From IMG/VR virus record IMGVR_UViG_3300020185_000068, positions 1 through 50,674 of that record: 50,674 nucleotides of DNA; one strand, given 5' to 3'. This DNA comes from a virus. The notes beneath the pieces are model-generated. The model did no database searches and had not been told where the DNA came from. It was given only the letters and a program-made list of their open reading frames with translations. Position numbers and translations under genes: made by a program. Below, in pieces: positions 4,070 to 4,992 of this stretch (within the stretch, counting starts at the first letter, position 1; every line of letters begins with the position of its first letter).

Positions 4070-4507
4070 TCAAGGAGTACTATTACCTTTTTTCCTATTT
4101 TCTTTTACAGTAAGATATTGTAGATTATCTTCGTGGTGTAGTCCGCCTTTTGACAATGGCATAATATGGTCTACTTCGTGTCCCACTGGACAATTCTCAT
4201 ATATCATCTTCATCACTTCTTTATTGGCGTCTTTGGCATATGCTCTATTATATCCATACTTTGCTCTGTAACGTGCTTGCCTTGCGGCATTACTTGCGGC
4301 TATTAGTTTAGGATCTTTTTTCCTAACAGAGCTTGCACACTTACTACTACAAAATTTCTTATTGCGTGTTTCTGTATTACATACTACACACTTAATAGGA
4401 TCTTTGCCGTGCCGTCTAACACTTTTGTTATTATGTTTTGCAGCACAAGATTTGCTACAAAACTTTGGATTGTTTGTGTCTGCTTCGCAGTGGTTACATT
4501 TGTTCAT
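4070..4507 (-). CDS. HNH endonuclease with two N-terminal zinc knuckles
   Basis: A 145-residue HNH nuclease. The N-terminus has two tandem zinc-binding modules, each built as CxxC...CxxxC: CNHC/CSKSC at residues 4-20 and CVVC/CSSKC at about 40-57. The C-terminus carries the HNH core HEVDHIMPLSKGG followed by a downstream N and H (HHEDNLQ) and a K-rich end. These are usually stand-alone homing-type nucleases in T4-like phages. It is the last gene after the two tRNAs, on the same strand. A late-promoter box lies only 5 nt from the ATG, and I see no good ribosome site. Confidence 0.85.
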   Translation of the reverse strand: MNKCNHCEADTNNPKFCSKSCAAKHNNKSVRRHGKDPIKCVVCNTETRNKKFCSSKCASSVRKKDPKLIAASNAARQARYRAKYGYNRAYAKDANKEVMKMIYENCPVGHEVDHIMPLSKGGLHHEDNLQYLTVKENRKKGNSTP

Positions 4508-4555: not shown

Positions 4556-4640
4556 TGGTCCTAGCGGTTGGAATCGAACCAACTCGGTCATTACAACAAA
4601 GCGTTATGAGCGCTGAGGCTCCCCATTTGCCATCACTAGG
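4556..4640 (-). tRNA. tRNA, anticodon CAT (Met or Ile2), long variable region
   Basis: An 85-nt tRNA with encoded CCA. The acceptor stem CCTAGTG pairs with CGCTAGG (7 bp, one G-U), discriminator A. The D stem is GGC/GCC. The anticodon loop CTCATAA gives anticodon CAT with U33 and A37. The T arm is GTTGG-TTCGATT-CCAAC. Between the anticodon and T stems there are 15 nt instead of 4-5, able to form a short hairpin (GTT/GAC), as in class II tRNAs. The anticodon stem top pair (C-T) is mismatched and position 8 is A instead of T. The amino acid identity is uncertain because a class II body is normally Leu, Ser or Tyr. Confidence 0.8.
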
Positions 4641-4648
4641 ATTATATT

Positions 4649-4722
4649 TGGCAAAGGTGAGGAGAATCGAACTCCTGCTTCTGGTTTTGGAGACCAGCGT
4701 GATACCATTTCACTACACCCTC
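4649..4722 (-). tRNA. tRNA-Trp (CCA)
   Basis: A 74-nt tRNA with encoded CCA. The acceptor GAGGGTG pairs with CACCTTT (two G-U pairs). The discriminator is G, as in bacterial tRNA-Trp. The anticodon stem is CTGGT/ACCAG with loop CTCCAAA, anticodon CCA. The T arm AGGAG-TTCGATT-CTCCT is canonical. It sits 8 nt upstream of the CAT tRNA and just downstream of the structured RNA at 4737-4804. Confidence 0.93.
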
Positions 4723-4736
4723 ATTTTTTTTAAAAA

Positions 4737-4804
4737 CACACTAACTTCAATCCTTTCGGGATCTATATTCTGCAAAACTTCCCATTGCAGTGGGACATAG
4801 TGTG
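4737..4804 (-). ncRNA. candidate pseudoknotted three-way-junction RNA
   Basis: On the minus strand an outer stem CACACTA/TAGTGTG (4798-4804 with 4737-4743) encloses two hairpins. The first is TCCCA-CTGCAA-TGGGA (4780-4795). The second is ATCC-CGAAA-GGAT (4750-4762). The six-base loop CTGCAA is perfectly complementary to TTGCAG at 4770-4775, which makes an H-type pseudoknot. It lies between a terminator and tRNA-Trp. I do not recognise the family. A processing signal, a riboswitch-like element or a small RNA are all possible. Confidence 0.45.
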
Positions 4805-4810
4805 CTTATA

Positions 4811-4844
4811 AAAAAAGCCCCTAATGAATTAACACTAGGGGCTT
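4811..4844 (-). terminator. intrinsic terminator / possible attenuator
   Basis: Stem AAGCCCCTA/TAGGGGCTT (9 bp) followed on the minus strand by a run of seven T. It lies about 30 nt past the stop codon of the 19-codon peptide and upstream of the tRNAs, so it must be read through, or a new promoter used, to express the tRNAs from the upstream promoter. Confidence 0.85.
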
Positions 4845-4873
4845 GCTTAAAATAACTTTTTTAAAAAGTCACG

Positions 4874-4933
4874 TCAAAACATTCCCCAATCTCTTGGCGG
4901 CCATCCTAATATATATGATGTAGTATTTGACAT
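4874..4933 (-). CDS. 19-aa peptide with two Trp codons (leader-peptide-like)
   Basis: The open frame reads ATG then 18 more codons and TGA. The peptide begins MSNTTSYILG and ends WPPRDWGMF, with Trp at positions 11 and 17. A ribosome site (AGAAAG, 8 nt spacing) precedes it. A near-consensus sigma70-type promoter starts transcription about 24 nt upstream, and an intrinsic terminator follows about 30 nt after the stop. The promoter/short ORF/terminator arrangement and Trp content recall amino-acid leader peptides, and the next stable RNA downstream is tRNA-Trp. It could instead be a free-standing small protein. The function is not known. Confidence 0.55.
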   Translation of the reverse strand: MSNTTSYILGWPPRDWGMF

Positions 4934-4963
4934 GTTATAATCTTTCTAATTGCTTATGTACTT

Positions 4964-4992
4964 AATATAGTATTTATTAACTTGAATGTCAA
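4964..4992 (-). promoter_or_regulatory. strong sigma70-type promoter
   Basis: Minus strand: TTGACA (4992-4987), 17-nt spacer, TATATT (4969-4964). The -35 overlaps a small dyad CTTGA-CAT-TCAAG that could bind a repressor. It drives the 19-aa peptide and possibly the tRNAs. Confidence 0.75.

Follow-up and report, generated by a model that had tools for sequence, protein, structure and literature searches.

A probable ribosome-mediated transcription attenuator ahead of a phage tRNA-Trp gene

A cassette on the minus strand of a viral contig from IMG/VR probably acts as a ribosome-mediated transcription attenuator that controls a phage tRNA-Trp gene. The whole stretch analyzed (50,674 nt; here called the window) carries T4-type head and tail genes and belongs to a large marine phage. 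Its capsid protein is 65 to 70% identical to those of jumbo myoviruses, e.g., Sinorhizobium phage Phosso and PA5oct, and the closest relative of this protein is from a Sinorhizobium phage. On the minus strand, the capsid gene and its terminator are followed by a promoter, a short open reading frame (ORF), an intrinsic terminator, a structured RNA, tRNA-Trp, and a second tRNA with the anticodon CAT (Table 1). The order of these parts, their conservation, the position of the Trp codon W11, and the alternative pairings of the transcript, as predicted, can all be read from the DNA.

The near-perfect sigma70-type promoter expected from an earlier inspection of the letters alone was present, and the intrinsic terminator, the pseudoknot-capable RNA, and tRNA-Trp(CCA) were all found on the minus strand. 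A separate promoter for the tRNA was looked for in the window between the terminator and the tRNA, and none was found. The ribosome site proposed ahead of the ORF was also located, but only as a weak purine run (AGAAAGA), and this poor Shine-Dalgarno match counts against the attenuation reading. Trp codons had been placed at positions 11 and 17; the first was correct, while the second is codon 16. The CAT-anticodon tRNA scores low as a tRNA, its variable region is unusually long, and it could be tRNA-Ile(CAU); its nearest cultured match was in Ochrobactrum phage vB_OspM_OC. The HNH/endonuclease VII-like gene immediately downstream of the tRNAs might serve to mobilize the cassette.

Table 1. 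Features of the cassette in the window and of related elements in other contigs
Feature	Position	Strand	Remarks
Sigma70-type promoter TTGACA-17-TATATT	4964..4992	-	starts cassette transcript; 11/12 matches, spacer 17; TTGACA 4992-4987, TATATT 4969-4964
Leader ORF	4874..4933	-	19 codons, MSNTTSYILGWPPRDWGMF
Trp codon 11	4903-4901	-	in leader ORF
Trp codon 16	4888-4886	-	in leader ORF
1:2 structure (predicted)	4870..4934	-	CAUGUCAAA at the start codon region (4934-4926) paired to UUUGACGUG at the stop codon region (4878-4870)
Hairpin CCAA-GAGA-UUGG	4897-4886	-	enclosed by start-stop stem of 1:2 structure
Antiterminator 2:3 (predicted)	4838..4887	-	GGGGAAUGUUUUGACGUGACUUUU paired with AAAAGUUAUUUUAAGCAAGCCCC
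Intrinsic terminator 3:4	4815..4844	-	12 bp, then U run
Structured RNA	about 4732..4807	-	outer stem, H-type pseudoknot, second hairpin
tRNA-Trp(CCA)	4649..4722	-	CCA encoded, discriminator G73, 67.3 bits
Second tRNA, anticodon CAT	4556..4640	-	same transcript; 35.7 bits, long variable region
HNH/endonuclease VII-like gene	4070-4507
Structured-RNA fold in intervening segment of viral permuted tmRNA	L099:4986-5061; L163:2832-2909; L189:9415-9490; L214:9210-9285		same fold
manA RNA (RF01745)	L083:13813-14017		56.7 bits
manA RNA (RF01745)	L120:2941-3143		40.6 bits, below curated cut-off

From these parts we infer leader translation, stalling, readthrough, and a purpose for the unit as follows. 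RNA polymerase would initiate at TTGACA/TATATT, and a ribosome would translate the 19-codon ORF. When Trp-tRNA is plentiful, the ribosome would pass codon 12 and cover the GGGG of codons 16 and 17, and the terminator would halt transcription before the tRNA. When Trp-tRNA is scarce, the ribosome would stall at W11 and cover CCAA, the partner of segment 2, so that UUGGGG and the following 20 nt would be free to pair with the 5' arm of the terminator. With the terminator blocked, tRNA-Trp and the tRNA behind it would be transcribed, a negative feedback by which the phage tRNA-Trp would be induced whenever charged tRNA-Trp runs short.

To model the switch, the ribosome-covered part was taken out of the nascent transcript, and the remainder, as far as the terminator loop, was folded for 10 variants of the cassette; a trpL-like 1:2/2:3/3:4 switch was predicted in all of them. 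When W11 occupied the A site, the probability (P) that GGGG paired with the CCCC of the terminator was 0.87 to 0.99 in the ten variants. The pairing extended through GUUUUGACGUGACUUUU : AAAAGUUAUUUUAAGC, so that every variant formed a long hairpin with some 19 pairs and energies of -13.9 to -19.1 kcal/mol (the complete terminator hairpin has -17 to -20). The original prediction of a weak GGGG/CCCC antiterminator was therefore borne out in its pairing but not in its weakness, and the view that the antiterminator consists of the 4-bp GGGG:CCCC pairing alone was rejected, as about 15 more pairs follow. The window's pairing probability was reached by only 2 of 1,000 shuffles; the same test was weak for L119 (298/1,000). 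When only the spacer between GGGG and CCCC was shuffled, the observed antiterminator energy was equaled in 6 to 24 of 1,000 cases.

The position of the ribosome determined the predicted outcome in all 10 variants. With the A-site codon at 7 or earlier, the start-stop stem and the hairpin of codons 13 to 16 already kept GGGG paired before CCCC was made (P about 0.9 to 0.99). At codons 9 to 12, GGGG was mostly free of this pairing (P ≤ 0.19, and ≤ 0.03 at codon 11), and from codon 13 onward it was masked and the terminator formed. The sensor window would thus comprise codons 9 to 12, and W11 is the sole Trp within it; footprint offsets of 11 to 16 nt left the W11 result unchanged. In this model W11 is the sensor and W16 provides the GGGG. 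W16 as the sensor was rejected on geometry, since a ribosome stalled there would hide GGGG, with termination as the outcome. The antiterminator was also favored at equilibrium when the RNA up to the 3' arm was folded without any ribosome; this weighs against the model, in which low basal transcription would then depend on hairpin 1:2 folding first. In silico, the antiterminator was exclusive of the terminator and exposed only with the ribosome at the control codon, as is characteristic of an attenuator. The same calculation applied to Escherichia coli trpL gave an antiterminator of -15.6 kcal/mol for A-site codons 7 to 12 and none from codon 14, indicating that the calculation reproduces the textbook case.

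Homologues were collected by pattern scans for the peptide, the structured RNA, and the conserved ORF end, and the cassette was found in 15 further viral contigs (L082-L085, L095, L097, L101, L119-L122, and L248-L251). All are metagenome contigs and none is from an isolate. The ORF, terminator, and tRNA-Trp occurred in one order in 16/16 contigs with seven distinct ORF sequences (the L250 contig ends inside the tRNA). These ORF sequences were MSNTTSYILGWPPRDWGMF, MSNTTTYITCWPPRDWGMF (in two nucleotide versions), MSKTTVHITYWPPCEWGMF, MSTTTVYITYWPPCEWGMF, MSTTTVHITYWPPCEWGMF, and, in L119, MSNTTTYITCWPPCLGNVLM. W11 was invariant in all 16 ORFs while the amino acid varied at codons 3, 6, 7, 9, 10, 14, and 15, and the ORF was never seen without a Trp codon; the co-occurrence anticipated by the original prediction therefore held for the homologues. 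W16 was lost in L119 only, through a 2-nt deletion whose frameshift gives the L119 sequence above; the UUGGGG nucleotides and W11 were retained, and the deletion could be an assembly error. Trp accounts for 1.12% of residues in the window phage, and at least two Trp in 18 codons would be expected with p of about 0.017 and Trp somewhere in the 4-codon sensor window by chance with p of about 0.044.

In the terminator, two pairs showed double-sided changes and 100% of cells were paired across the 10 variants, and the helices of the 1:2 structure were 97.8% and 97.5% paired. The codon 13-16 hairpin changed from CCAA-GAGA-UUGG to CCAU-GCGA-AUGG, with GNRA loops in both. Segments 2 and 3 were nearly invariant, and with columns this uniform the antiterminator lacked double-sided covariation, a point against the reading. 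Such near-invariance fits strands that would have two partners. Together, the conservation of W11, the terminator, and the predicted alternative pairings support the attenuation reading.

TTGACA-17-TATATT was located upstream of 15 of the 16 ORFs; the L121 contig is too short to show the promoter region, and its identical relatives carry the promoter 250 nt upstream. The distance from promoter to ATG was 27 to 34 nt, except that an additional RNA between the two raised it to 250 nt in L083, L120, and L122. This RNA was manA (RF01745), found between the promoter and the leader ORF in L083 and L120-L122, suggesting that the cassette locus gathers structured RNAs. In L083 it is flanked by a repeat of TATATTAAGTACATAAGC. 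The surroundings of the cassette also varied: it lies directly after the capsid gene in the window and L251, inside a tRNA array between tRNA-Glu and tRNA-Pro in the L082 group, after tRNA-Ile in the L095 group, and after other genes in L248-L250. A related phage, L003, has tRNA-Trp and lacks the cassette, which speaks against the attenuation reading. Neighbors of the capsid gene, used as a source of homologues, were mostly without a nearby tRNA. Cultured phages gave no match to the leader peptide, and a search for known phage or plasmid copies of the cassette gave matches at the tRNA level only. When 135 tRNAs in the gathered loci were scanned for a leader ORF with cognate codons plus a terminator, the sole result besides this cassette was a weak Ala case in L123.

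The fold of the structured RNA ahead of tRNA-Trp shows strong covariation. That of the window folded better than 200/200 shuffles; over ten sequences, 97.3% of cells were paired, ten pairs had changed on both sides, and the covariation score was reached in 0/500 shuffles. It was absent from L248 and L250, and the same fold was observed in the intervening segments of four viral permuted tmRNA genes, where it immediately precedes the mature 5' end in the way that it precedes tRNA-Trp in the cassette. Since two cassettes do without it and its relatives are found in permuted tmRNA genes, the structured RNA is separate from the switch and is an optional element 5' of tRNA or tRNA-like domains. The attenuation cassette as first proposed thus stands for the ORF, terminator, and tRNA-Trp but not for the inclusion of this RNA in the switch. 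We would guess at a role in 5' processing or stability. No known RNA family matched it up to an E value of 10. A host origin was rejected: six bacterial or archaeal pattern matches lacked tRNA context and look like chance, and 385 alphaproteobacterial genomes gave no credible match (best, 23.6 bits). Other permuted-tmRNA intervening segments contained different structured inserts. Among the viral permuted tmRNA genes L128-L247, a simple rule was used to delimit 115 intervening segments (lengths, 10 to 296 nt), of which 34 held an ATG-started frame of at least 25 amino acids, candidates for small genes nested in the pre-tmRNA. Recurring peptide families in these segments were MDEVILWEFRK..., MKNPLVKKISVVMF..., and MEIIWHILLTVC..., and several of the frames were Trp rich.

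We considered whether the ORF and terminator might instead form an independent small gene for a functional 19-amino-acid phage peptide, with the downstream tRNA-Trp made by leaky readthrough. A strong promoter of its own would suit such a gene, as would the conservation of TT, WPP, and WGMF in the peptide and the retention of Pro at P12 despite synonymous variation (CCG/CCA/CCT). However, the N-terminal half of the ORF changes mostly by replacement, the invariance of WGMF is explained by segment 2, the alternative pairing matches the position of W11, and the ORF was never found without tRNA-Trp in the 16 contigs, making this explanation unlikely. The conservation of WPP at the amino acid level, with P12 also within the sensor window, might alternatively point to a TnaC-like arrest peptide, in which the ribosome is stalled not by a lack of Trp-tRNA but by nascent WPPRD-like residues together with free tryptophan or slow Pro-Pro bonds. 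Pro-Pro is known to slow ribosomes. If the ribosome stalled at codon 13 or beyond, however, GGGG would be masked and the terminator favored, and R14 and D15 are replaced by C and E among the ORF variants; we regard such an arrest as very unlikely.

A chance arrangement, copied recently among phages as a neutral tRNA cassette of near-identical DNA and serving no regulation, would account for the several copies that are almost identical in DNA and for the other optional RNAs that occupy the same locus. Against this, the copies in L119, L120, L249, and L251 have diverged yet retain the promoter, W11, and the two alternative folds, and compensatory changes have kept their terminator intact; neutral copying therefore appears highly improbable.

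If attenuation by the leader is correct, phage tRNAs would be inducible on demand by the charging of the very tRNA encoded, from a small, transferable unit that brings its own promoter. We tentatively suggest, with more doubt than for the attenuator itself, that a leader peptide lets the virus sense how far one host tRNA is charged and respond by inducing its own version of that tRNA, countering tRNA-cutting defenses or a tRNA shortage at the time of infection. It was observed that tRNA-Pro follows tRNA-Trp in many cassettes (L082, L084, L085, L095, L097, L101, L119, L083, and L251). Given a downstream tRNA-Pro and P12 beside W11 in the sensor window, the switch may also respond to Pro-tRNA, and the same tentative suggestion extends to such a two-codon sensor. 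With the unit, one could test directly why phages carry tRNAs and, among other ideas, whether they replace tRNAs cut by host defenses. Induction of phage tRNA synthesis by tRNA shortage may be a new idea: the original prediction knew of no such phage cassette, and in the part of the literature covered by our search we found neither one nor a paper linking phage tRNA genes with leader-peptide attenuation.

Leader-peptide attenuation is a textbook control of amino acid operons. The phage unit resembles E. coli trpL in its short ORF with Trp codons at about 10 to 11, its 1:2, 2:3, and 3:4 hairpins, its intrinsic terminator, and its matching response to ribosome position in the folding calculation. 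It differs in controlling a tRNA gene, whereas trpL controls biosynthetic enzymes, and in having one Trp codon in the sensor window where trpL has tandem Trp codons, the latter difference weighing against the attenuation reading. An Rfam search of the window at gathering scores returned tRNA only, with no Trp leader match up to an E value of 10 and no T-box riboswitch match by covariance model. The Phe_leader (RF01859) and Thr_leader (RF00506) families share the architecture of leader ORF, terminator, and antiterminator; their matches were weak and sub-threshold (E values of 3 to 4) and do not indicate homology. The optional insert ahead of tRNA-Trp corresponds to the RNA in the intervening segment of permuted (two-piece) tmRNA (RF01849/RF04321; PMC11915505). 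RF01849 itself was absent from the window, and the cassette, which lacks a tmRNA, has only this type of RNA in common with it. In the alphaproteobacterium Sinorhizobium meliloti, the trp attenuator leader peptide peTrpL, encoded by trpL, leads a biosynthesis operon and acts in trans (PMC7298713), whereas for the phage leader peptide a role in trans is not known. Phage tRNAs can offset tRNA-cutting host defenses, and phage T5 has a strong promoter for tRNA-Tyr (PMC11555353, PMC10264068). Those tRNAs are likewise supplied when the host tRNA is depleted; no induction by the shortage is known for them, whereas the tRNA-Trp of the cassette described here would be.
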